A stretch of DNA of 48,453 nt, taken from positions 1 through 48,453 of the forward strand of contig JARKNX010000074.1 of assembly GCA_029976025.1 (NCBI GenBank). Reading direction: 5' to 3'. Source of the stretch: Aggregatilineales bacterium. GTDB lineage: Bacteria; Chloroflexota; Anaerolineae; Aggregatilineales; Ch27. The stretch's first letter is position 1. Each line of letters starts with the position of its first letter. Shown here in pieces: positions 1 through 11,918 of this stretch. The translations under genes and the position numbers were made by a program. A model generated the notes under the pieces. The model worked only from the letters and a program-made list of their open reading frames with translations. It was not told where the DNA came from and ran no database searches.

Positions 1-283
1 CCGCAACTTCTACGCGGATGAGACCAGCTTCTTCGCCTTCGACGATCCGGAGATCACGGCCCTCTTTGCCGAAGGCCGCGTGACCACCGATCCTGAGGCT
101 CGCTACGCCGTTTACGCCCTGCTCGACGCCCGGCTGTGGGATATGCTGCCGATGCTCCCGATCTATCAGGCCATCGGCGCCTGGGCCTACAGCGCCGACC
201 TGAACATCGACAACGCCGAGCTGAACGGCACCTTCCTGACCGGCCTCAAGTACCCGGGCCGCGTCTACTGGATAGCGCCCTAA
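1..283 (+). CDS. C-terminal end of a family 5 (peptide/nickel type) ABC transporter substrate-binding protein, partial
   Basis: The reading frame is already open at base 2 and ends at the TAA at 281-283, so only about 93 C-terminal residues are present. The text contains an ALFAEGR..DPEAR..YALLDARLWDMLPMLPIYQ stretch followed by a closing Tyr/Gly-rich tail, the pattern at the end of SBP_bac_5 proteins, where a late 'LP.iPiyq' segment precedes the last strands. Such proteins bind oligopeptides or other solutes outside the membrane for an ABC importer. The permease and ATPase genes would lie outside the window. Family assignment rests on a short C-terminal piece, so the substrate cannot be judged. 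Confidence 0.72.
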   Translation, partial: RNFYADETSFFAFDDPEITALFAEGRVTTDPEARYAVYALLDARLWDMLPMLPIYQAIGAWAYSADLNIDNAELNGTFLTGLKYPGRVYWIAP

Positions 284-314
284 CACCTGCGCCGCGTAAG
301 CGCATGAGATTCCG

Positions 315-340
315 AGACAGGGGGCTTAAGCCCCTTGTCT
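315..340. repeat. Interspersed palindrome with central CTTAAG, copy 1
   Basis: The arms AGACAGGGGGC and GCCCCTTGTCT flank a central TTAA and pair with a single mismatch (a G:U pair in RNA). It lies about 30 bases past the stop of the substrate-binding protein. A near-identical copy lies at 12518-12541, again just past a stop codon. The position would suit a 3'-end hairpin or a REP-like element. Confidence 0.7.
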
Positions 341-518
341 CTCTGATCCGGTCACAGTCGGACGTTCAATCGTACAGGCACCGGGCGTTCAGTTGAGCGC
401 CCGTACGGCGCCTCTGTCTGGCCTTGTCCTGTGGCCCCACCCCCGGCCCCTCTCCATCGCAACGTGGGGAGGAGGGTACGACGCGCCGGGGGTGAGGCCG
501 GAAGGTTCTCCAACCCAT

Positions 519-1475
519 ATGTCCGACTCCTCCCCGACGACGTCCGCCGCAGCCCGCTCCTCCTGGGGCGGCGTGGCGCTGGCCGTCCTGGCCGGCATCT
601 GCTTCAGCGCCGCCATCCTCTTCATCCGTCCGACCGCCGGCCTGAGCGCGCCCGGCATCAGCTTCTACCGGCTGCTCTTCGCCTTCCTGACGCTGTCGCT
701 CACCCTGCCGCGCTGGCGGGAGCCGCTGCACATCCGCCGCTACCGGCGCCACATCCCGGCCCTGATCCTCGCCGGCATCGCCATCGGCGCCACCGCGTCG
801 CTCTATATCTACGCCATCCAGCACACCACCGTCGCCACCGCCGTCCTGCTGGTGAACACCACCCCGGTCTACATCGCCCTGCTGTCGCCCTGGCTGCTCA
901 GGGAGCCGCGCCCCCGCTACACCTGGCCCGGGCTGGTCATGGCCGTCACCGGGATCATCCTGATCATCGACCCGGCCCAGCTCCGCCTGGGGGCCGGATC
1001 GCCGGCCGGCGTGGCCGCGGCGGCGCTCTCCGGCCTGACCTACTCCATCCCGATCATAGTCGGGCGACGCCTGCGCGGGCAGATCGGCGGCCCGACCCTG
1101 ATCTGGTGGGGGACGGCCGTAGCCGCCCTGATGCTGCTGCCCTTCGGCCTGGGCGCCGACCCGGCGGCGGTCGCGGCCAACCTGATCTACCTGATCCCGA
1201 TGGGCGTGATCTCCATGGCCGCCTCTTACCTGCTGACCTTCCTGGCCCTGGGGCGGACCAACGCCCAGGTCGTGAGCACGGCCCTGCTGGTGGAGCCGGT
1301 CAGCGGCGTCCTGATCGGCATGCTGGTCTTCATGGAGCCGGTGACGGCGCTCACCCTGATCGGCAGCATTCTGGTGCTGGGCAGCATCGTCCTGATCGCG
1401 CGCCCGTCCCCCGCCCCCGCCGGGTACGAGCATAACCTGTCAGGAAAAGGCATTGAGCGCAAATACAACGGATGA
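519..1475 (+). CDS. EamA/DMT-superfamily transporter (10 membrane segments)
   Basis: This is a 318-residue integral membrane protein with two tandem EamA-type halves of about five helices each. The first half opens with GGVALAVLAGICFSAAILF and the second with a Ser/Gly-rich AALSGLTYSIPII segment, and each ends in a conserved 'PV....E' loop (VNTTPVYIALLSPWLL; VEPVSGVLIGMLVF). The family exports or imports metabolites such as amino acids or nucleosides, and the substrate here is unknown. The frame stays open upstream to 393, but the 42 extra residues read through hairpin-repeat DNA and are not membrane-like. I chose the ATG at 519, which is followed by the short hydrophilic leader normal for EamA proteins. 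Confidence 0.85.
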   Translation: MSDSSPTTSAAARSSWGGVALAVLAGICFSAAILFIRPTAGLSAPGISFYRLLFAFLTLSLTLPRWREPLHIRRYRRHIPALILAGIAIGATASLYIYAIQHTTVATAVLLVNTTPVYIALLSPWLLREPRPRYTWPGLVMAVTGIILIIDPAQLRLGAGSPAGVAAAALSGLTYSIPIIVGRRLRGQIGGPTLIWWGTAVAALMLLPFGLGADPAAVAANLIYLIPMGVISMAASYLLTFLALGRTNAQVVSTALLVEPVSGVLIGMLVFMEPVTALTLIGSILVLGSIVLIARPSPAPAGYEHNLSGKGIERKYNG

Positions 1476-1743
1476 AAGCGGGTAGAAATAGCTTAACGGC
1501 CCCCCGCCTGCCTTTCTCTGCGCCTCCGCGGCTGCCGCTCTTCCCCTGCCGCCCGCTCCCCGCCGTTGCGTTAGAAACCGCGAACCTTGCCGGAGGCAAC
1601 TTGTCCCTTATCTCAGATAGCAGTACAATGCCGGTAGTGATGGTGATGCGCCGGGCTGACCGCCCGCAGAAGACGCCGGACTCCGGCGACGCCGACCTTC
1701 GGCGCTATCACCGGGATAAGCGAAGGCAGGGAGATAAGACGTT

Positions 1744-2193
1744 ATGGAACTGGTAGACCTACTGAAGCGGGTGGAACTGTTCGCCGGCCTGAATCAGGAG
1801 CAGCTTGACCGTCTGGCCCGCGCCGTCCACCGCATTGAGGTCCACGAGGGCGATGTCATCTTCTCGCGGGGGGAGCCTGGCCAGCAGTTGTATGTGATTC
1901 AGGAAGGCCAGGTGGAAGTGATCATCTCCGACGACCCGAAGAAGAAGAACGTCGGGCTGGTCTACCTGGGCCAGGGCCAGATCTTTGGCGAAATGGCGCT
2001 TATCGACTACGGCGAGCGGTCGGCGACTATTCGCTGCGCCAGCACGAAGGCCATCCTGGCCGTGCTCAACCGGGACGATTTCGAGGGCCTGTGCGCCGGG
2101 GATACCGCCATCGGCTATATCGTCATGCGCAACATGGCCAGCGATCTGTCCTTCAAGCTCCGCCACCGCAATGTCGAGCCAAAGTCCGGCTGA
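1744..2193 (+). CDS. Cyclic nucleotide-binding (Crp/cNMP fold) domain protein without DNA-binding domain
   Basis: A 149-residue protein that is almost wholly one cNMP-binding beta barrel. The N-terminal helix (LKRVELFAGLNQEQLDRLA) is the classic CAP entry. It is followed by the strand/turn 'EGDVIFSRGEPGQQLYVIQEG' and the phosphate-binding-cassette region 'GQIFGEMALIDYGERSATIRC', where FGEMALID..RSAT matches the family's FGE.alL....RsAtv motif. No helix-turn-helix follows, since the protein ends about 20 residues after the barrel. It is probably a stand-alone cNMP sensor or a partner subunit rather than a transcription factor. A GGGAG stretch lies about 12 bases before the ATG. The next small gene on the same strand may be co-transcribed. 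Confidence 0.85.
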   Translation: MELVDLLKRVELFAGLNQEQLDRLARAVHRIEVHEGDVIFSRGEPGQQLYVIQEGQVEVIISDDPKKKNVGLVYLGQGQIFGEMALIDYGERSATIRCASTKAILAVLNRDDFEGLCAGDTAIGYIVMRNMASDLSFKLRHRNVEPKSG

Positions 2194-2278
2194 GCACGGC
2201 CGGACGGCAGCCTGAACCCACGAAAGGAGGAGCGCGCCGTTTTCACCACCGCCCGTGAGCGTTTGCGGCGCCAACCTT

Positions 2279-2494
2279 ATGATTTATAAAGTCAGCTACG
2301 TCGTCATGGGGGGCGAACACCCCGGCGGCATTATGAACCACATCCAGCGCCCCGAGATCGGCCAGAAGGTCGAGATCGGCAAAATGACATTTGAGATTAT
2401 CGAGATTCATGAGGTCATGCCGCCGCGCGGGGACTTCCAGTTCCTCCACGCGACGGTCAGGCCGGTGGTCGAAGCGGCGACGCCCGACCCGTAG
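2279..2494 (+). CDS. Small conserved-looking protein of unknown function
   Basis: This would be a 71-residue protein starting MIYKVSYVVMGGEHPGGI, with a basic, mixed alpha/beta composition and no membrane segment or Cys. I do not recognise a family. The reading frame also has a GTG at 2255. A strong Shine-Dalgarno (AAAGGAGG, 2223-2230) is too far from either start, so the exact start is uncertain. The ATG at 2279 was chosen because the text 'YKVSYVV...HPGGIMNHI..P..GQKVEIGK..FEIIEIHEV' looks like one compact domain beginning there. It follows the cyclic-nucleotide-binding gene by 85 bases on the same strand. Confidence 0.55.
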   Translation: MIYKVSYVVMGGEHPGGIMNHIQRPEIGQKVEIGKMTFEIIEIHEVMPPRGDFQFLHATVRPVVEAATPDP

Positions 2495-2604
2495 CGCCCC
2501 GCCGCCCCATACCGTCTCCGCCCGCCGGAGCGATTCGCCAGCATCGGGCTGCCCCTGTGGCCGCCCGTTTTTTGCGCCTGCCTCACCCCCGCCTCACCCC
2601 CCGG

Positions 2605-2631
2605 CCCCCTCTCCAACAAGTGGAGAGGGGG
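2605..2631. repeat. GC-rich hairpin repeat, copy 1
   Basis: A perfect 11-bp stem (CCCCCTCTCCA with TGGAGAGGGGG) closes a 5-base loop, ACAAG, and is preceded by CACCCCCCGGC. It lies downstream of the first TIR-FGE gene. The same stem returns at 4323-4349 and 5809-5835 with the loop inverted. Confidence 0.85.
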
Positions 2632-2727
2632 AGCCTTTGCCTCCTTCCTCCCATCTTTAGGGGGAGGAAGGAGGATGGAGGCCCCGGACCCCCCAGAATT
2701 CAGAATTCAGAAGACCAGGAATCAGAA

Positions 2728-4221
2728 CTAAGAGCGGGAAATGCGAAACCCCCCGGTATCGTCCCAGCCCTGAGGGAAGTACCTGTCCCGGTAATCGCAG
2801 CGGAACCCGACGGTATCGCCGAAGTGCCACGACCCGCCGCGCAGAACGCGCCCATTCTCCCCCTCCAGCGATTCACTCCCCGTCTCATAAGCCGTCAGGC
2901 ACCATTCCCACACGTTCCCGGCCATATCGGTCACGCCGAAGAAGCTGTCGCCCTTTCGCTCCCCCTCGTATTGTGTCACCGGCGTCGTGATATTGCTATC
3001 ACATGGCGACACTGAATTATTGCAGCGCTCGCAGTCCCACTCATTCCCCCAGGGATAGGCCCGCCCGTCATCCCCCTGCGCTGCCCGCTGCCACTGTCCC
3101 TCGGTTGGGAGCATGATACGCTCGCCAGTCGTCGCGCTGAGCCACCTGCAGAAGGCGACCGCCTCGTACCACGACACGCCCACCACCGGCTGGTCCGCCC
3201 CGTTCCACACGCTGTCCGTCCAGTAGCGCGGCGCGGCCCAGCCCTCCTGCTCTCGCGCTTCCCATCCGGCCTCCGTCCACCACTGGCGCTCACGGTAGCC
3301 GCCCGCCTCCACAAACTTCGCAAACTGGGCGTTGGTGACCGGGTACCTGGCGATGCTGAACGCAGGCACATCGAAAGTCGTGTCCGCTTTCAGGTAGCCA
3401 CCGGCCTTCAGCGTCACCTTCCCCGCCGGAATATCAACCCACGCAAACGGCGCGGGCAGCAGAGCCTGCACGCCGCGCAGTGTCGGCTTTTTGGAGGATG
3501 TGTGAGTGGGCGGCTCAGTTATTGCTGTCGGGGGTGAGTCAGCCTCTGGTTGTGGAGGGGGGGGCGTTTCTGGCGGCGGTGTCTCGGGACGCTTAGCCAT
3601 CCGCCGCTCTATCAGCGCCAGCAACTTCAGCGCCTGCTCGTCTCCCGGCGCGATATGCAGGAGGTCTTCCACCAGCTCGCGCGCGTCGTCGTACCGCCTG
3701 TCCCGGTAATGCTGGTAGGCTTCATCATACAGCCGCCGCACCAGCGGCACATCCGCGCCGGTCGTGTGGCTGACCTCGCGCTCCGGCGGGCGATCGTCGG
3801 GCGCCGGCAGCAGCGGCACGCTCTCCGGCGAGATTGGCCCGGCAGCGAAGATAGCTGTCGCCAGCCGCACCCCGACTTCCATCGTATCGCCCGCCGTGAA
3901 GTCGATGTACTGAAGATCGCCCAGCGCCTGGCATACATTGTCGGGCTGGCACGCTTCCAGCAGCGCGGGCACGATCGGCTTGCCCATGTGCACAGCCTGA
4001 GCGAACTCCCAGCGGCACCAGGCGGAGGCGACCGATTCTGGCGTCAGAGCGTAGATGAAGCGATCGCTGGTCTTGATCTGGGCGCGCAATTGGTCGCGCC
4101 AGGGCTGGCCGCCGACCAGCCGCTGGTCATACCAGACATCGTGACCGGCCATGCGCAAGAATTCGGCCAGTTTCTGGATGCGCGGCAGATCAACGTGGGC
4201 ATAGCTGATGAATATCTTCAT
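2728..4221 (-). CDS. TIR domain + TPR-like helices + FGE-fold (C-type-lectin-like) protein; likely DGR target, copy 1
   Basis: A 497-residue protein. Residues 1-128 are a TIR domain (MKIFISYAHVD start; WYDQRL; SAWCRWEFAQAV with the putative NADase glutamate E72). Residues 160-205 look like a TPR-type helix pair (YQHYRDRRYDDARELVEDLL), followed by a Pro-rich linker. Residues 250-497 are a formylglycine-generating-enzyme (SUMF1) fold with PVTNAQFAKFV, GVSWYEAVAFCRWLS, LPTEGQWQRAA, YPWGNEWD, NVWEWCLT, LRGGSW and GFRISRS. The two C-terminal cysteines of true FGE are absent near RGGSW, so this is a binding domain rather than a catalyst. The open frame reaches 4260 with a TTG start, but the ATG at 4221 opens exactly on the TIR strand and was preferred. 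The last ~35 codons behave like a DGR variable region when compared with the paralogue at 4430. Confidence 0.88.
   Translation of the reverse strand: MKIFISYAHVDLPRIQKLAEFLRMAGHDVWYDQRLVGGQPWRDQLRAQIKTSDRFIYALTPESVASAWCRWEFAQAVHMGKPIVPALLEACQPDNVCQALGDLQYIDFTAGDTMEVGVRLATAIFAAGPISPESVPLLPAPDDRPPEREVSHTTGADVPLVRRLYDEAYQHYRDRRYDDARELVEDLLHIAPGDEQALKLLALIERRMAKRPETPPPETPPPPQPEADSPPTAITEPPTHTSSKKPTLRGVQALLPAPFAWVDIPAGKVTLKAGGYLKADTTFDVPAFSIARYPVTNAQFAKFVEAGGYRERQWWTEAGWEAREQEGWAAPRYWTDSVWNGADQPVVGVSWYEAVAFCRWLSATTGERIMLPTEGQWQRAAQGDDGRAYPWGNEWDCERCNNSVSPCDSNITTPVTQYEGERKGDSFFGVTDMAGNVWEWCLTAYETGSESLEGENGRVLRGGSWHFGDTVGFRCDYRDRYFPQGWDDTGGFRISRS
2755..2856 (-). other. Candidate DGR variable region (VR) of TIR-FGE copy 1
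   Basis: These 34 codons encode the ligand-facing end of the FGE fold, from just before RVLRGGSW to just before GGFRISRS. Compared with 4457-4558, 15 codons differ at 19 bases. All 19 lie at codon positions 1 or 2, all change the amino acid, and every third position is identical. Each differing site is compatible with an A in a shared template (most sites fit AAC). Just downstream, 32 bases covering GGFRISRS, the stop and five more bases are identical in both copies, as expected of an initiation-of-mutagenic-homology segment. No template repeat or reverse transcriptase is in the window. Confidence 0.8.
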
Positions 4222-4260
4222 GCGGTTCGTTTGTGGGATGTGAATCGATACTGCTGACAA

Positions 4261-4398
4261 TTATGGGGCAGAAGGCCGCCTCCGGCAAACGGCCCCGCCT
4301 CACCCCCGGCCACACCCCCCGGCCCCCTCTCCACTTGTTGGAGAGGGGGAGCTTTCGCTTCCTTCCCCCATTTTGGGGGAAGGACTGAGGATGGGGGG
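4261..4398. repeat. Duplicated 5' flank of TIR-FGE copy 1 with hairpin repeat copy 2
   Basis: This ~135-base stretch begins TTATGGGGCAGAAGGCCGC and contains the 11-bp stem hairpin (4323-4349, loop CTTGT), then TTTTGGGGGAAGGACTGAGG. It is nearly identical to 5747-5881. It separates the two TIR-FGE genes and lies upstream of the first one, so it belongs to the duplicated unit. Confidence 0.85.
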
Positions 4399-4429
4399 GC
4401 GCAGCCCGCCAGAATCACAGAAGCCAGAA

Positions 4430-5704
4430 CTAAGAGCGGGAAATGCGAAACCCCCCGTCATCGTTCCTGCCCTGAGGGAAGAGCCTGTACCGGTAATCGC
4501 AGCGGAACCTGCCGACACCGTTGAGGTACCACGACCCGCCGTGCAGAACGCGCGCATCCTCCCCCTCCAGCGATTCACTCCCCGTCTTGTAGGTCGTCAG
4601 GCACCACTCCCACACATTCCCGGCCATATCGGTCACGCCGAAGAAGCTGTCGCCCTTTTGCTCCCCCTCGTATCGTGTCACCGGCGTCGTGACTTCGCTC
4701 TTACATGGCTCCACTGAATTATTGCAACGTTTGCAATCCCATTCATTCCCCCAGGGGTAGGCTCGCCTGTCATCCCCCTGCGCCGCCCGCTGCCACTGCC
4801 CTTCGGTTGGGAGCATGATACGCTCGCCAGTCGTCGCGCTGAGCCACTTGCAGAAGGCGACCGCCTCATACCACGACACGCCCACCACCGGCTGGTCCGC
4901 CCCGTTCCACTTGCTATCCGTCCAGTAGCGCGGCGCGGTCCAGCCTTTCTCCCGCGCTTCCCATCCGGCCTCCGTCCACCACTGGCGCTCACGGTAGCCG
5001 CCTGCCTCCACAAACTTCGCAAACTGGGCGTTGGTGACCGGGTACCTGGCGATGCTGAACGCCGGCACGTCGAAAGTCGTGTCCGCTTTCAGGTAGCCAC
5101 CGACCTTCAGCTTCACCTTCCCCGCCGGGATATCCACCCAGCTAAACGGCGCGGGCAGCAGAGCCTGCACGCCGCGCGCCGAAGCGGGCGCGCCCGTCTC
5201 CATCGCCCTCAGGCGCCGCTGCACTTCAGCCTGCTCCTCCGGCGGAGTTGTATGGATGCGCACGTACTCCGGCGCCTTCAGGAAGCGCGTCCGCAGCATC
5301 TCCATCGCTGCGTCGAAGAAATAATGCGGCAGCGGCAGCCCGTTCTTCTTTTCTACGATCTTCCGCAGTCTGGTCGGCAGATAGCCCGCCTCGCGCGCGA
5401 AGTCCGCGCCCTCTTCGATAATCGGGACGATGTTGCGCTCCAGCCGGACGGCTTCCTCGACCTCCCGCCGCAGCCAGTCCCCGGGCTGGGCGCAGCGCTC
5501 CAGCGCGCCGGGCGAGACCAGCAAGATGAAGTGAGCGCGCGCGCCGATCTGGTTGAGGATGATGCGGTCGAAGTCCCCGCTGTCGATGGTGGTCACATCC
5601 AGGAACACATCCCAGCCATGCTGCTTCAGGTCCAGGTAGATGGATCGGGCCAGATGCTTGCTCGTGGAACGCCGGTAGGAAATGAAGACGGTTTTCTGGT
5701 CCAT
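4430..5704 (-). CDS. TIR-like domain + FGE-fold (C-type-lectin-like) protein; likely DGR target, copy 2
   Basis: A 424-residue protein. Residues 1-150 form a second, quite different TIR-type domain (KTVFISYRRS; WDVFLDVTTIDSG; LLVSPGAL; DWLRREVEEAV with a candidate catalytic E81; NIVPIIEEGADF). Residues 178-424 are an FGE-fold domain almost identical to that of the gene at 2728 (RYPVTNAQFAKFVEAGGY, GVSWYEAVAFC, LPTEGQWQRAAQGDD, MAGNVWEWCLT). It lacks the TPR-like and Pro-rich middle of copy 1. The FGE catalytic Cys pair is missing here too. Copies 1 and 2 share FGE domain and 5' flank but not the TIR part, so the N-terminus was exchanged. The ATG at 5704 opens directly on the TIR strand. The likely role is a recognition-effector protein with a diversified binding end, which is inference. 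Confidence 0.88.
   Translation of the reverse strand: MDQKTVFISYRRSTSKHLARSIYLDLKQHGWDVFLDVTTIDSGDFDRIILNQIGARAHFILLVSPGALERCAQPGDWLRREVEEAVRLERNIVPIIEEGADFAREAGYLPTRLRKIVEKKNGLPLPHYFFDAAMEMLRTRFLKAPEYVRIHTTPPEEQAEVQRRLRAMETGAPASARGVQALLPAPFSWVDIPAGKVKLKVGGYLKADTTFDVPAFSIARYPVTNAQFAKFVEAGGYRERQWWTEAGWEAREKGWTAPRYWTDSKWNGADQPVVGVSWYEAVAFCKWLSATTGERIMLPTEGQWQRAAQGDDRRAYPWGNEWDCKRCNNSVEPCKSEVTTPVTRYEGEQKGDSFFGVTDMAGNVWEWCLTTYKTGSESLEGEDARVLHGGSWYLNGVGRFRCDYRYRLFPQGRNDDGGFRISRS
4457..4558 (-). other. Candidate DGR variable region (VR) of TIR-FGE copy 2
   Basis: This is the counterpart of 2755-2856. Pairs (copy 1/copy 2) include GAC/TAC, TAC/CTC, GGC/AAC, ACC/GTC, TTC/CTC and TGG/AGG, always with the same third base. 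Immediately upstream in the coding direction, ordinary synonymous third-base differences reappear (for example GAA/GAG, AAC/AAT), so the pattern is confined to the end of the gene. Confidence 0.8.
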
Positions 5705-5746
5705 GCGCTGTTTCCAGATGGGATGGGCTGTCCGTGCTGCCGATCA

Positions 5747-5881
5747 TTATGGGGCAGAAGGCCGCTCCCGGCAAACGGCCCGGCCTCACCCCTGGCCTCA
5801 CCCCCCGGCCCCCTCTCCACTTGTTGGAGAGGGGGAGCCTTCACTTCCTTCTCTCATTTTGGGGGAAGGACTGAGGGGGGA
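5747..5881. repeat. Duplicated 5' flank of TIR-FGE copy 2 with hairpin repeat copy 3
   Basis: Near-identical to 4261-4398, including the 11-bp stem (5809-5819 with 5825-5835, loop CTTGT). It lies between the second TIR-FGE gene and the MBL hydrolase gene. Confidence 0.85.
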
Positions 5882-5884
5882 GAC

Positions 5885-6655
5885 TCACACCTCAAATGTG
5901 TCGAAGTCGTGGGCCATCTGCACCGGCCCGGGGAAGACTGCCTGCGCCTCCGGGATCAGCGGCGTGGGGTCCACCGGCCCGTTGCGGTCGAAGACCTCGT
6001 AGTGGATCAGGAGCAGCTTCCTGGCCCCCGCCGCCGCCGCGATCTCGCCCGCCTGGCGGGCGCTGGAGTGGCCGATGCCGTCCCCGCCGGCGACCTCGTG
6101 GATGAACAGGTCGGCGTCGCGGCCCAGATCGATCAGGCTGGGGGTGGGCGCCGTGTCGCAGCTATAGGCCGTCACGAAGCCGGTCCGCTTGTTCTCCACC
6201 CGCAGGCCGATCGTTGGCACGTAGTGCTTGACCGGCCAGGATGTGATACGAAAGTCGCTGTTCTCGATCAGGAGCTGGTTGTCGCGCTCCAGCAGCTTGT
6301 GGAAGGCCACCGGGAAGAAATCGGGCCACTCGTCCCAGGCGTGGGCCAGCATGGTATCTTCCACGCGGTTGAGGCACTGGTGCAGCCCGTAGACGCGCAG
6401 GGCGCGCCGCCGGCCCAGCAGCCACATGTTGTTGAGCAGGATGGGCACGCCGGAGACATGATCCGGGTGAAAGTGGGTCAGGATCATGTCAGTCAGATCG
6501 TTGTAGTCGATCCCCACGCTGCGCATCCGCGCGATCGGGTTGGAGCCACAATCAATCAGGACGGCGCATTCATCCCCCTGAAACACCATGTGCGTATTGT
6601 CGTGCTCCATGTCGGGCACGATAGCCGCTGAACCCAGAATAACTAAACGAGCCAT
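5885..6655 (-). CDS. Metallo-beta-lactamase fold hydrolase (RNase Z-like subgroup)
   Basis: A 256-residue MBL-fold protein. The zinc motif THFHPDH appears around residue 60 after the strand 'DYNDLTDMILTHFHPDH', preceded by CAVLIDCGSNP. Later ligands fit YSCDTAPT...D and 'HEVAGGDGIGHSSARQAGEIA', and the C-terminal 'LLLIHYE' supplies the last histidine. This is the order seen in arylsulfatase/RNase Z-like MBL hydrolases, which cut phosphodiester or ester bonds. The substrate cannot be named. The ATG at 6655 opens MARLVILGSAA, the usual first strand. It reads toward the TIR-FGE genes but is separated from them by a repeat, so a shared operon is doubtful. Confidence 0.83.
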   Translation of the reverse strand: MARLVILGSAAIVPDMEHDNTHMVFQGDECAVLIDCGSNPIARMRSVGIDYNDLTDMILTHFHPDHVSGVPILLNNMWLLGRRRALRVYGLHQCLNRVEDTMLAHAWDEWPDFFPVAFHKLLERDNQLLIENSDFRITSWPVKHYVPTIGLRVENKRTGFVTAYSCDTAPTPSLIDLGRDADLFIHEVAGGDGIGHSSARQAGEIAAAAGARKLLLIHYEVFDRNGPVDPTPLIPEAQAVFPGPVQMAHDFDTFEV

Positions 6656-6729
6656 GCCATCCTCATCCGCTTCCGCTAATTTCTACCACAATAGCCTACC
6701 TCAGAGCGCGGCGCAATGAGCCATCTCTC

Positions 6730-8640
6730 TCATTCGGGCGCCGCGGAATGGGGCGCCTCCTCTCCCTTATCCCGGGGGTGCGGGCGGGCCGCCGCGGCCA
6801 TGATCGCCTGGATGCGGCTGACCATCTCCGCCGGGTTGGGGTGGATGCCCTCCACCAGCAGCGCGTTTTCGTAAAGCTGGGTGATCATGTCCGGCAGGAG
6901 CAGGTCCATCGGGTCGGCCTGCAGGGTCAGCGCCAGGCTGCGGATCAGGGGATGGCGGCGGTTGATCTCCATCACCCGCTTGCTGAGCTGGAAGTCCTCC
7001 TCCACCAGCTTGCGGACGCGCTCCAGGTTATCCGCGCCGGGGGCGCCGTCCGGCGGCACCAGCCGCGCCGGACTCTCCGTCAGCCGCCGCGCCTCCCGCA
7101 CGGCCACGACCTGCTCGCCCAGCACCTCGTTGAAGCGCTTGAGCAGCGGGTTGAACAGGTCATCGGGCAGCGCCTCGCCGGCGGCGGTGTCCACTTCCGG
7201 CGCGTCCACCGCCGCGTCGGCGATATTCTGCACATCGTGGCCGTCGAACTGGCGCAGCGACATCATCATGAACGAATCGATCGGCTCGGTCAGGTACAGC
7301 ACTTCCGTCCCCGACGCCTTGAACGGGTCCAGGTGCGGGCTGTGGGCGATTGAGGTCAGGTCCTCGCCGAACAGGTAGTAAACTTTGTCCTGCCCCTCCT
7401 TCATCCGCTCGACATACCCGGCCAGGGAGGTCCACCCCTCCGGCCCGGTCTGCGAAGACCGGAAGCGCAGCAGGCCGATCAGCGCCTCGTGATCGTCCGG
7501 GGCGATGGCCATGCCCTCCTTGAGGAAGCCGCCGAACTGCTCCCAGAAGGTGCGGTAGGCGTCTGGCTGTTCGGTGGCCAGCGTCTCCATCTCGCGCAGC
7601 AGGCGGCGGACCAGGTTGTTCCGTATCTTGCGCACCGGCGCGCTGGCCTGCACCGTCTCGCGGGAGACATTCAGCGGCAGGTCCTCCGAATCGACCACGC
7701 CCTCCACAAAGCGCAGATACTCCGGCAGCAGGTCGGGCGCCCGCTCCTGGATCAGGACCTTGCGGCTGTACAGGCGCAGGCCGTATTCGCGCGGGGCCAG
7801 CGGGCCGCGGTCGCGGCGGCCCGGCACGTAGAGGATGGCGTGCAGGTCGATCGGGGCTTCGCTGCTCACATGCACATGCAGCAGCGGGTCGCCCGCGTCC
7901 AGCGTGATCTGCCGGTAGAAGTTCCGGTAAGCCTCCTCGTCCACTTCGCGCGGCGCTTTGCGCCAGAGGGCCACCTGCTGATTGGCGGGCTGGGGCGCCT
8001 CATCCTCTGCCGGCTGGCCGACATAAATCGGGAAGGCGATGAAGTCGCTGTGACGGTGGACAATCTGGCGCAGACGCCATTCGTTGGCGAATTCGCGGGC
8101 CTCCTCCTTGAGCGTGATCACGATCTCGGTGCCGCGCCGGTCCATCTCCGCCTCCTCCACCGTGAAGTGAGGGGAGCCGTCACAGGTCCAGCGGGCCGCG
8201 GCCGCCTCCGGCCGGAAGGAGCGGGAGGTCACCTGGACGCGCTCGGCGACCATGAAGACGCTGTAGAAGCCGACGCCGAACTGGCCGATGATGTTCGTCG
8301 CCGTGTCACCCTGCTCCTGGAGGGCTTTCAGGAACGCTGTCGCGCCGGACTGGGCGATCGTGCCCAGGTTGGTCACCAGTTCGTCGCGGGTCATGCCAAC
8401 GCCGCTGTCGCGGACGGTCAGCGTGCCCGCCCCCGGATCGGCTGTGATCCAGATCGCCAGCTCCGCGTCCGGGTCGAAGGCGTCGTGCATGGTCAGCATC
8501 TCGAACTGAAGCCGGTGCAGCGCGTCCGAAGCGTTGGAGATCAGCTCCCGCAGGAAGATCTCCTGCTCAGTGTACAGGGAGTGAATCAGGATATGAAGCA
8601 GTTGCTGAATCTCAGCCTTGAACTCAAATGTCTCCGCCAT
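6730..8640 (-). CDS. htpG: HtpG, bacterial Hsp90 molecular chaperone
   Basis: A 636-residue protein, the normal HtpG length. The N-terminal GHKL ATPase shows TFEFKAEIQQLLHILIHSLY, FLRELISNASDAL (catalytic Glu and Mg-binding Asn), DSGVGMT, LGTIAQSGA and GQFGVGFYSVFMVA. The middle domain has LYSRKVLIQ and EGVVDSEDLPLNVSRE, and the C-terminal dimerisation part follows. The chaperone folds client proteins in the cytoplasm using ATP. The frame is open to 8664, but the ATG at 8640 matches the family start and has a GAGGAGG Shine-Dalgarno just upstream. No chaperone partner lies next to it. Confidence 0.97.
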   Translation of the reverse strand: MAETFEFKAEIQQLLHILIHSLYTEQEIFLRELISNASDALHRLQFEMLTMHDAFDPDAELAIWITADPGAGTLTVRDSGVGMTRDELVTNLGTIAQSGATAFLKALQEQGDTATNIIGQFGVGFYSVFMVAERVQVTSRSFRPEAAAARWTCDGSPHFTVEEAEMDRRGTEIVITLKEEAREFANEWRLRQIVHRHSDFIAFPIYVGQPAEDEAPQPANQQVALWRKAPREVDEEAYRNFYRQITLDAGDPLLHVHVSSEAPIDLHAILYVPGRRDRGPLAPREYGLRLYSRKVLIQERAPDLLPEYLRFVEGVVDSEDLPLNVSRETVQASAPVRKIRNNLVRRLLREMETLATEQPDAYRTFWEQFGGFLKEGMAIAPDDHEALIGLLRFRSSQTGPEGWTSLAGYVERMKEGQDKVYYLFGEDLTSIAHSPHLDPFKASGTEVLYLTEPIDSFMMMSLRQFDGHDVQNIADAAVDAPEVDTAAGEALPDDLFNPLLKRFNEVLGEQVVAVREARRLTESPARLVPPDGAPGADNLERVRKLVEEDFQLSKRVMEINRRHPLIRSLALTLQADPMDLLLPDMITQLYENALLVEGIHPNPAEMVSRIQAIMAAAARPHPRDKGEEAPHSAAPE

Positions 8641-9008
8641 GAGGGGCCTCCTCTGAATTTGCATCGGGGAAAAGCGATCACCACCGCGCTATTATACAGG
8701 CAGACGGCGGGTGACGGCGGAACTCTTGCATATTTCTAACGGCAGCGAGGGGCGGGGAAAAGCAGGCCGCGGCCCGCAGGGAACAGGTGACCTGCCCCCG
8801 GCCTGGGGTCCGGTGAGCCGGGGACACGGGGCGAAAAAACGAGCGCAAAAGCCATAGCGCGGAATTCAGGCGGGACATGCTGGCGGCGGTGATGACACCG
8901 CCGCGCAAGCCCCTGCGCCTGGCCGGAGCCGGGCGCGTTCACTCATCGCCGGGGTATCGGCGCCTGTTGAGCGCCCTCCGTTCCGGCGTGTAATGAGCTT
9001 CTCCCCCG
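8641..9008. other. Gene-free stretch between htpG and the FAD/Fe-S oxidoreductase
   Basis: About 370 bases lie between two minus-strand genes. The short frames here have biased, low-complexity translations and no recognisable protein. The htpG promoter must lie in this stretch, but I see no convincing -35/-10 pair, RNA or repeat. Confidence 0.5.
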
Positions 9009-11918
9009 CTACAGCCGGGCCTTCAACCGGCGGGCCAGCGCCTCCGCCGGGTGCAGGGCGTGCCGGCCGGTGAAATCCTGAATCTGGTGGCGGCAGCTCA
9101 TCCCCGCCGCGATCACCTGCGTCTCCGGCCCCGCTTCCAGAACAGCCGGGACCAGCCGGCGGTAGGCCATATCCCGGGAGATATCGTAGTGCTCCGCTTC
9201 GTAGCCAAAGGCGCCGGCCATCCCGCAGCAGCCGGAGTCGACCTCGCTGATCTGCCCGTGCGCCAGGCTGAGCGCGGCGTGGGCCGGCTTCGTGCCGACG
9301 AGCGATTTCTGGTGACAGTGGCCGTGCAGCAGCGCCGGAGCAACGTCCGGCTCGAACAGATCGGCCCACTCGTCGGTGTGCCGGGCGGCGAATTCTTCGA
9401 AGGTGAAGGTGTTGGCGGCCACGGCGGCCCGGTCGGGATGCTGGCTCAGGTGCTGGTGCTCGTCGCGCACGGTCAGGATGCAGCTCGGCTCCAGGCCGAC
9501 AATCGGCACGCCCGCCCGGCCGTAAGGCGCCAGAACGTCCATCACGCGGTCCGCCGCGCGGCGGGCCTGATTGACGAAGCCTTTGGAGAGGTACGTCCGC
9601 CCGCAGCAGGCATAGGGCGGGATGATCACCTCGTACCCGCCGGCGGTCAGCACGTCGAACGCGGCGCGGGCGATCGAAGTCTCATGGTAGTTGGCCCAGG
9701 TATCCACGTACAGGACGACCTTGCGCCCGGTGGCCACGGCGGGGCGCGGCGGGGTGAAAGCCGGCTGGAAGGTCGGCAGCCTGCGCCGGCGGTCAATGTT
9801 GAGGACGGCGTCCAGCCCGACGCGGACCGGCCAGGCGCTCAGAGCGAAGTTAGCCAGCCCGGACAGCCGGCTGCCGATCGCGCTGAAGCGCGGCATGTGG
9901 GCGAACAGGCGGGTGCGCAGGTCGGGCGCGTGATGGCGGTAGTAGTGAGCCTGCCACTCCAGCTTGATGCGGGCCATATCCACCGCCGAGGGGCACTCGC
10001 TCTTGCACGCCTTACAGGAGATGCACAGCTCCATCGCCCCGGCCATGCGCGGGCTGAACAGCTCCTCGCGCGGGAGCAGGCCGGACAGCGCGGCGCGAAG
10101 CAGGTTGGCCCGCCCGCGCGTGCTGTGCTCCTCCTCGCGGGTGACCATGAAGCTGGGGCACATCGTCTGCGCCTCGGTCTTGCGGCAGACACCCGCGCCA
10201 TTGCACATCTCGACCGCCGCGGCGAAGCCGTAATCGGCTGACCAGTCCAGCACTTCATAGAGGGGCAGGGTCTGGTAGCCGGGCGGGTAGCGCAGGTGCT
10301 CTGTCATCGGCCCGGCGTCAACAATGATGCCGGGGTTCAGGCGGTTCTCCGGGTCAAAAGCCCGCTTGACCTGTCGGAACGCCTCCACCACCCGGTCGCC
10401 GTACAGATGGTGGCTCAGCCAGGAGCGAGTGCGGCCGTCGCCGTGCTCGCTGCTGATCGTGCCGCTGTAGTGCAGGACGCGCTCGGCGCTGGCCCGGGCG
10501 ATGCGCGTCATGATGGCCGGGCCGTCAGCGCCTTTGAGGTTGAGGATCGGGCGCAGGTGCAGGCAGCCGGCGCTGGCATGGGCGTAAACAGCCATGGGAA
10601 CCCCGGCCTCCTGGCAGATCGCCTGCATATCGCGCACGTAGGCGGCCAGATGCGCCACTGGCACCGCCGCGTCTTCGATGAAGGGGATCGGCTTGGTATC
10701 TCCGCGCATACTCATCAGCAGGCCCAGCCCGGCCTTGCGCACCGCCCACACCCCGGCCTGGGAGGCGGCATCCATCAGCCGGATCACCTCGCCCGCCGGG
10801 ATGGCGCAGGCCCTGATCTGCGCCTCCAGCCGGTCCATTTTAGCGGCCAGCTCTGCCTCGCTCTCACCGTAGAACTCGGTGAGCAGCACGCCGGCCGGAT
10901 CGCCGCGGACGAACGACAGGCGCGGCCGCCACGCCGTCGACTCGCGGATCAGGTTCATCTGTGTCCGGTCGAGCAGCTCAATCGCGCTTGGCCCGACTTC
11001 CAGCAGCGCCGGGACGGACTCCAGCGCCGCGTTGAGATCGTCGAAGTGCACAACAGCCAGCGCCTTACGGGTCGGCGTGGAGACCAGGTTGAGCGTGATC
11101 CCGATCGCTGTGCCGAGCGTGCCCTCCGCGCCGACCATCAGCCGGGCCAGGTTGAAGCGTCGATCTTCCCAGCGCTCCGGGGGCAGCGGGGCGACATTCC
11201 CCGCCCCCTCCGGCAGGAAATGGTCCAGCGCGTAACCGCTGCAGCGCCGCCACGTCTGCGGTAAATGGGCGCGGATATCCTCGCCGTACTCGGCTATGAT
11301 CGCCGGGATCGCGCGGTAGATCGCGCCTTCCAGCGTGTTCCGGGCGGCCTTGCCGGCGATCGCTTCTGCCTCGACCGGCCCGAACGCCGCCGTCGTGCCG
11401 TCGGCCAGGACGATCTCCATCCCGATCACGTGGTCAAGCGCCAGGCCGTACAGGATGCTGTGCGACCCGGTGGAGTTATTGCCGGTGATGCCACCGAGTG
11501 TTGCGCGATCTTCGGTGGCCGGATCGGGGCCGAACTTCAGCCTGTGCCGGGCGAGGGCCCTGTTCAGACGGGAGAGGACGAGGCCCGGCTCCACGCGCAC
11601 CCACCGCTCCGGCGCGTTGACCTCCAGGATACGGTCCAGACGCGACAGATCGATGACCACGGCCTCATTGACGGCCTGACCGGCCAGGCTGGTGCCGCTG
11701 CCGCGCGGCAGGACCGGCAGCCGGTAACGGGCGGCGGCCTCCATAGTGGCGATCACGTCGTCGGTGCTGGCGGCCATCACAACCGCCAGCGGCATGATCT
11801 GGTAAAGGCTGGCATCGGTGCTGTAAAGCACGCGGCTGTAGCGATCGGTGCGCACCTCCCCCCGCAGGCGAGGGGCCAGGTCAGCGGTGAAGTCATCAAC
11901 GGCATAAGAGGCGCTCAT
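9009..11918 (-). CDS. Large FAD-linked oxidase / Fe-S (CCG-domain) fusion, D-lactate or glycolate dehydrogenase type
   Basis: A 969-residue three-part fusion. Residues ~40-270 are an FAD-binding PCMH domain (LPVLPRGSGTSLAGQAVN; GGITGNNSTGSHSILYGLA). Residues ~300-550 are the FAD-oxidase C-terminal domain (YAHASAGCLHLRP; SSEHGDGRTRSW). Residues ~590-660 hold two [4Fe-4S] motifs (CNGAGVCRK...MCPSFM and CISCKACKSECPSAVDM). The C-terminal third has two CCG modules (PPYACCGRTY and DSGCCGMAGAFGYE) with HGHCHQKSL between. This GlcD-GlcF style arrangement in one chain oxidises a 2-hydroxyacid at FAD and passes electrons through Fe-S clusters to a membrane acceptor. D-lactate is a likely substrate but sequence alone does not fix it. 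The ATG at 11918 gives a complete N-terminus. Confidence 0.93.
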   Translation of the reverse strand: MSASYAVDDFTADLAPRLRGEVRTDRYSRVLYSTDASLYQIMPLAVVMAASTDDVIATMEAAARYRLPVLPRGSGTSLAGQAVNEAVVIDLSRLDRILEVNAPERWVRVEPGLVLSRLNRALARHRLKFGPDPATEDRATLGGITGNNSTGSHSILYGLALDHVIGMEIVLADGTTAAFGPVEAEAIAGKAARNTLEGAIYRAIPAIIAEYGEDIRAHLPQTWRRCSGYALDHFLPEGAGNVAPLPPERWEDRRFNLARLMVGAEGTLGTAIGITLNLVSTPTRKALAVVHFDDLNAALESVPALLEVGPSAIELLDRTQMNLIRESTAWRPRLSFVRGDPAGVLLTEFYGESEAELAAKMDRLEAQIRACAIPAGEVIRLMDAASQAGVWAVRKAGLGLLMSMRGDTKPIPFIEDAAVPVAHLAAYVRDMQAICQEAGVPMAVYAHASAGCLHLRPILNLKGADGPAIMTRIARASAERVLHYSGTISSEHGDGRTRSWLSHHLYGDRVVEAFRQVKRAFDPENRLNPGIIVDAGPMTEHLRYPPGYQTLPLYEVLDWSADYGFAAAVEMCNGAGVCRKTEAQTMCPSFMVTREEEHSTRGRANLLRAALSGLLPREELFSPRMAGAMELCISCKACKSECPSAVDMARIKLEWQAHYYRHHAPDLRTRLFAHMPRFSAIGSRLSGLANFALSAWPVRVGLDAVLNIDRRRRLPTFQPAFTPPRPAVATGRKVVLYVDTWANYHETSIARAAFDVLTAGGYEVIIPPYACCGRTYLSKGFVNQARRAADRVMDVLAPYGRAGVPIVGLEPSCILTVRDEHQHLSQHPDRAAVAANTFTFEEFAARHTDEWADLFEPDVAPALLHGHCHQKSLVGTKPAHAALSLAHGQISEVDSGCCGMAGAFGYEAEHYDISRDMAYRRLVPAVLEAGPETQVIAAGMSCRHQIQDFTGRHALHPAEALARRLKARL

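Follow-up and report, generated by a model that had tools for sequence, protein, structure and literature searches.

The window analysed here, the whole stretch of 48,453 nucleotides at positions 1 to 48,453 (forward strand) of contig JARKNX010000074.1, comes from the draft genome of an Aggregatilineales bacterium (Chloroflexota; GCA_029976025.1). Two neighbouring genes in it, A and B, each join a TIR domain to an FGE-sulfatase domain of the C-type-lectin-like type (Table 1). Judged from sequence, the 3′ ends of A, B and a third paralogue (gene C) are very likely variable regions of a diversity-generating retroelement (DGR). An earlier note on this DNA had proposed as much for A and B, and the proposal is now supported by templates from relatives, by a control set and by TIR-FGE genes that are DGR targets in the same order. 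An alternative in-frame start of gene A (TTG at 4260) would give 510 amino acids (aa). The top PDB sequence matches of the gene B TIR are the TIR domains of the NAD+ hydrolase SARM1; gene A gave no SARM1 match in the PDB sequence search. In the alignment with SARM1, gene B has the TIR fold with its conserved glutamate, and residue E80, which we take to be the catalytic TIR residue, is invariant across 65 aligned TIR-FGE proteins. The FGE catalytic cysteines are situated in the same C-terminal region. Besides gene B itself, the protein nearest to it among the matches listed (120 proteins) is 67-69% identical, and no second strain was seen among them.

Table 1. Genes, domains and 3′-end features of the TIR-FGE pair in the window
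Feature	Coordinates	Strand	Length or basis
Gene A, TIR - TPR-like (Fis1_TPR_C) - FGE protein	2728..4221	-	497 aa from ATG at 4221
Gene A TIR_2 domain	3889..4215	-	Pfam PF13676, 5.2e-26
Gene A FGE-sulfatase (C-type-lectin-like) domain	2740..3441	-	Pfam PF03781, 4.5e-44
Gene A variable region A, 34 codons	2755..2856	-	Codon alignment and template comparison
Gene A 32-base stretch past the variable region, same as in gene B (final 8 codons, stop codon and 5 bases)	2723..2754	-	
Gene B, TIR (SARM1-like) - FGE protein	4430..5704	-	424 aa
Gene B TIR_2 domain	5405..5689	-	Pfam, 7.6e-11; PDB sequence match, 5.6e-21
Gene B FGE-sulfatase domain	4442..5140	-	Pfam, 6e-44; fold match
Gene B variable region B, 34 codons	4457..4558	-	Codon alignment and template comparison
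Gene B 32-base stretch past the variable region, identical to gene A	4425..4456	-	

Over the 34 aligned codons of the two variable regions (the patch), A and B differ at 19 bases in 15 codons. These are distributed 11, 8 and 0 over codon positions 1, 2 and 3, and every difference changes the residue (0 synonymous). This recount agrees with the earlier note, as does the recomputed chance of 0/19 at position 3 under equal change, (2/3)^19 = 0.00045 (given there as about 0.0005). The identity of the final 32 bases was likewise confirmed, as was the return of third-base differences upstream of the patch, for example at gene A codons 457-458. In the 201 flanking FGE codons the differences are 12, 8 and 25 by codon position; third bases thus account for 25/45 of them, compared with 0/19 in 35 patch codons (p=7.9e-6), while change at positions 1 and 2 is more frequent in the patch than in the flank (p=1.2e-7). 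It is a hallmark of DGR targets that copies of a C-type-lectin-fold gene (fold here from Pfam and structure) differ in their 3′ ends at the first two codon positions, as A and B do.

A search of the own genome assembly (3,999,610 bases in 225 contigs, 91.84% complete) with variable region A returned, besides the two window copies, one at C197:92462-92595, which is the end of gene C (572-aa frame; L111:10885-12603). Across the three copies, 30 of 108 sites are variable, 15, 14 and 1 by codon position. In a longer cut, the third position varies in 1/35 patch codons vs 40/201 flank codons (p=0.007), and third bases make up 1/33 of the variable sites in the patch vs 40/83 in the flank (p=7e-7). 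The patch thus varies at replacement sites while its silent sites agree, the pattern that rewriting from a single template would give. Similarity is far lower over the first 170 codons (28/116 aligned residues for A and B, 69/168 for A and C, 37/164 for B and C), with the TIR heads of A and C more similar to each other than to that of B.

Several features of the DNA around the three copies were also observed. Gene C no longer ends at the TAG stop of A and B, which reads TCG there (L111:12478-12603, on C197), and is two residues longer; A, B and C have ATT, ATT and AAT immediately before this codon. Upstream of gene C, past an unrelated open reading frame, the shared 3′ gene end recurs as a 26-base exact match (L111:10708-10733; C197:90708-90733), which probably remains from a fourth TIR-FGE copy that was deleted; as a candidate template end it was rejected, being the shared gene end with no A-rich repeat before it. 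Near-identical stretches lie upstream of all three genes (window ~4225-4360 and ~5720-5840; L111 ~10800-10920), with the sequence GGCCGTTTGCCGG...CCTTCTGCCCCATAAT and the palindrome CTCTCCACTTGTTGGAGAG; they may be a regulatory or mobile element carried along as the genes spread.

DGR-type reverse transcriptases (RTs) beside FGE genes of relatives were located with the BPP-1 RT as query, and template/variable repeat pairs adjoin them, with mismatches mostly at template adenines. Ten of these templates were aligned ungapped to the three own copies, with that of genome G115 as an eleventh, and scored by the presence of A at own variable vs invariant sites across A, B and C; four (L044, L064, L078 and L082), mostly from other phyla, were left out. 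The best of the ten was the template of G081 (L179), with A at 27/30 variable vs 7/78 invariant sites (p=8.0e-16; 27/29 vs 6/43 without third positions, p=7e-12), and the other nine gave p values from 7e-12 to 2e-6 (Table 2). Register is kept to the end by L031, L176, L177 and L179; in the remaining six the first variable block lacks one codon, so their counts beyond that block are out of register and rough. The G115 template, in register, has A at 26/30 vs 6/75 sites (p=6.1e-15). At the 17 alignable sites that differ between A and B, A is found at 15 in the G115 template, 15 in the G081 template and 13 in a G005 template. Conversely, placing A at the own variable sites (one kept C) raises identity to the G115 template from 70-74/105 for the real copies to 87/105, and to the G081 template from 71-74/108 to 89/108. 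The DGR hallmark that variable sites are template adenines is therefore seen through the templates of relatives, the own template being unseen.

Table 2. Adenines of nine templates from relatives at sites that are variable or invariant among genes A, B and C
Template	A at variable sites	A at invariant sites	Register
L031	24/30	8/77	In register to end
L176	25/29	9/67	In register to end
L177	24/30	11/78	In register to end
L194 and L195 (each)	22/30	9/78	One codon shorter
L193	22/30	10/78	One codon shorter
L181	21/30	10/78	One codon shorter
L052	20/30	9/78	One codon shorter
L040 (weakest, p=2.1e-6)	19/30	11/74	One codon shorter

Paralogue pairs of FGE genes served as controls. Among 23 pairs compared in the same register over all differing sites, the own pairs have 15/17, 26/29 and 19/20 of these sites on L179 adenines (88-95%) and three G081 pairs that fit L179 have 19/19, 19/19 and 21/21 (100%), compared with 37-65% in the other 17; the adenine share over all differing sites is what discriminates the own genes from the controls. 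For third bases, 28 pairs with flank amino-acid identity of at least 50% were compared (21 genome groups; 14 groups had no pair). At most one third-base difference in 25 core patch codons was found in six of the 28, namely the own three and the same three G081 pairs, vs 5-19 in the other 22. The control nearest in divergence, a G030 pair, has third-base differences at 30/148 in the flank and 11/25 in the patch.

TIR-FGE genes are DGR targets in the order. The 154 genomes of the order that were searched contain 18 long RT-profile matches (>300 bits), in 13 genomes, and a same-strand template/variable pair was found at 12 of the 18 stretches; at a thirteenth locus, G005:C13, the pair is on opposite strands (L178) and its target fell outside the domain scan. 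TIR_2 is present in 7 of the 12 targets: combined with FGE, and with RT and template at the locus, in G005 (two) and G011 (one), and together with NACHT or nSTAND1 and FGE in G111, G125, G122 and G030. The remaining five are a kinase-NACHT-FGE protein in G004, frames cut by contig ends in G130 and G081 (two), and an unscanned target in G037. The G081 template mismatches its own target at 0/73 non-A and 19/37 A sites, and it fits TIR-FGE genes on other contigs (L180, 0/73 and 21/37; L182, 2/73 and 18/37), which by sequence reads as a trans arrangement in a relative. A search of the 154 genomes with variable region B gave matches in G110, G111, G115, G091, G086, G068 and G031 as well as the own genome; of the ten match places read, one is a template, that of G115, whose contig begins inside an RT ~370 bases before it. 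DGR-like RT pieces were observed at G001:C14:59670-59765 (a 32-position C-terminal piece, in the same family), G098:C63:74695-74967 (91 positions) and G010:C2:738648-738851 (stop-containing), possible signs of DGR decay in the order.

Several results weigh against reading the gene ends as DGR-rewritten. The earlier note had proposed a whole-genome search for an RT and a template, and the own assembly yielded neither: the RT was sought with Pfam RVT_1 (PF00078) and a profile of 16 DGR RTs, and the template with variable region DNA, a degenerate pattern (up to 3 mismatches) and the inferred template. Apart from the three variable regions and the 26-base leftover, these searches gave short, weak matches. 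Since the inferred template recovers all three variable regions with E values of 3e-21 or lower, any template present in the assembly would be expected to have been picked up. Nor is an RT the default in the order, given how few of its genomes have a long match. The earlier statement that every differing site fits an A is empty by itself, being true of any site considered without a template, and A is not enriched in the patch (among the three copies it occurs at 25/33 variable patch sites vs 53/83 in the flank, p=0.155); it gains content from the relatives' templates (15/17). One patch site is off-model, a third base reading TAC/TAC/TTA with the exception in gene C, and the excess of three-state sites is marginal (6/33 vs 5/83 in the flank, p=0.053). 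Taken pair by pair, the third-base deficit is modest (p=0.014 for A and B, 0.064 and 0.022 for the others), because the own copies are close to each other; with third-base differences at 16-25/148 in the flank they are closer still than the G030 pair, which limits the power of that comparison. Lastly, when only positions 1 and 2 are counted, variation at G115-template adenines also occurs in pairs whose genomes lack a long DGR-RT match: a G068 pair (24/29 vs 8/41, p=1.4e-7), three G052 pairs (p=1e-3 to 7e-9) and six G091 pairs (p=0.03 to 2e-4). The p values of the adenine test therefore overstate the case; the coincidence in these controls may reflect past DGR action or selection. The G068 TIR-FGE genes (L188, L189), in a genome that is a single contig, are perhaps an old, abandoned DGR target.

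All considered, we put at roughly 0.8 the probability that the last ~34 FGE codons of A, B and C are DGR variable regions overwritten from one shared A-rich template that lies outside the assembled genome, and we infer that an RT and template act in trans in this organism, or did so until recently. The earlier note had ascribed the diversification to a DGR elsewhere in the genome; that location is unproven, neither component having been found in the draft, but action in trans is realistic because in G081 a template and a TIR-FGE variable region that it fits are on different contigs. We lean towards the locus having been missed by the assembly. Of the 18 long DGR RTs in the order, 11 lie <2.5 kb from a contig end, whereas ~5.7 would be expected from the mean contig size (p=0.003 under a crude model), so that a missed locus is plausible, and this also tells against the rather unlikely alternative that RT and template were recently deleted and rewriting of the three variable regions has ceased. 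Such a loss would explain why both are absent from the assembly and would have parallels in the RT remnants of G001, G098 and G010 and in G068 (one contig) and G091 (20 contigs), which keep TIR-FGE genes without a long DGR-RT match. However, third-base differences per 25 patch codons are ordinary in G068 (5) and G091 (10-16), vs 0-1 in the own copies, and any loss here must therefore be recent.

A location of the DGR on a different replicon, for example a separately binned plasmid or prophage, is improbable. The template is not in the bin, the G081 template fits targets on other contigs and remote targets are reported in other bacteria (PMC10907252, PMC7517822); on the other hand, variable region A has no match among 72,556 plasmid and 50,697 phage records, the degenerate pattern has no exact match in viral contigs, and several of the order's DGR RTs are on contigs of 80-151 kb (replicon type not distinguished). 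Hardly credible is an origin without any retroelement, through positive selection on the binding surface or gene conversion between paralogues. FGE pairs from genomes without a long DGR-RT match do vary at these codons, and the paralogues do share or exchange DNA, as the identical 3′ ends and the 26-base remnant attest. Yet selection does not predict a loss of silent differences in the patch alone, gene conversion makes copies alike rather than different, the closest control in divergence (G030) retains its patch third-base differences, and the adenine share of the own pairs lies well above that of the 17 other pairs.

As possible hidden template sites, the starts of contigs C58 and C72 were tried and rejected, tblastn with the BPP-1 RT being negative over the first 10 kb of C58 and 1.9 kb of C72. 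Both contigs are broken inside apparently the same FGE gene (the translations overlap), with a frame of at least 1176 aa.

If the ends of A, B and C are DGR variable regions, a single A-rich template would be transcribed into template RNA and copied into adenine-mutated cDNA, which would replace the gene ends under guidance of the constant 3′ end. The rewritten patch would form the ligand-binding face of the FGE fold, so that each rewritten copy would gain a new binding surface, in the manner of an immune receptor. Binding of a target, probably a component of a phage or other invader, would switch on the TIR head, which may stop infection through NAD+ loss or a nucleotide signal, the gene B TIR resembling that of NAD+-hydrolysing SARM1. 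By computation, the 29 inferred A sites in 19 codons give ~4.8e16 reachable protein variants per gene, and none of the 19 codons can turn into a stop. A defence role is a reasonable inference because PADLOC models (ThsB, TIR-SAVED, TIR-Argonaute and others) match these proteins, though in the TIR part alone; the window neighbours (1-8664, judged by eye) include no obvious defence genes, which counts against it. More tentatively, and with less than even confidence, one DGR template may continually feed new binding sites to receptors with different TIR death heads. If so, an uncultured Chloroflexota lineage would have a bacterial analogue of a receptor repertoire, with a common recognition library and a signalling output particular to each copy.

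Remote DGR targets, some with TIR domains, are already known elsewhere. Vallota-Eastman et al. (2020; PMC7517822) count 76 remote targets in cyanobacteria, with a C-type-lectin C-terminus, a 3′-end variable region and varied N-terminal heads, of which TIR-like ones are less common. The genes described here resemble these in being paralogues with a C-type-lectin-fold end, a 3′ variable region and a TIR head; they differ in belonging to a Chloroflexota genome, in their two-domain TIR-FGE architecture and in that the driving DGR was not found in the draft. Dore et al. (2024; PMC10907252) describe DGR-diversified putative antigen sensors in Thiohalocapsa and other multicellular bacteria, with mention of filamentous Chloroflexi, in which FGE/CLec variable domains are joined to TIR, CHAT, NACHT or nSTAND modules and a template fits targets at another locus (DGR 2 to DGR 4 and 5). 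Many of those targets contain a STAND NTPase or belong to a MoxR/vWA system, the DGR 2 target combining CHAT and TIR, whereas Pfam detected no NTPase in the window genes. FGS domains are likewise linked to DGRs in ternary conflict systems (PMC7159879). Literature searches, including one that combined TIR domain, FGE-sulfatase and reverse transcriptase, found no paper on TIR-FGE DGR targets in Anaerolineae. To go by the title of their 2011 paper, Le Coq and Ghosh reportedly describe Treponema denticola TvpA (PDB 2y3c) as a DGR protein. SARM1 and TIR-1 have NAD+ hydrolase TIR domains; in SARM1 the gating is by its ARM and SAM domains, whereas the sensor here would be the hypervariable FGE domain, and NADase activity is predicted from sequence.

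The remote targets were recognised here without their RT, from differences between paralogues in a draft genome, and then tested against relatives' templates, which points to a means of finding orphan variable regions. The genes would represent a minimal pair, with a TIR effector head placed directly on a hypervariable binding domain, and DGR diversification of bacterial immune receptors thereby becomes directly testable with a two-domain protein.

Two related architectures were observed in passing. On contig C182 of the own genome (L247:310-1902, minus strand), a SARM1-like TIR, 48% identical to the gene B TIR over residues 3-206, is fused to TPR-looking repeats (judged by eye) in place of the FGE domain. 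In a Chloroflexi metagenome-assembled genome, a Caspase-like (Peptidase_C14) - FGE protein (L031:764-2602) lies adjacent to a DGR RT and template.

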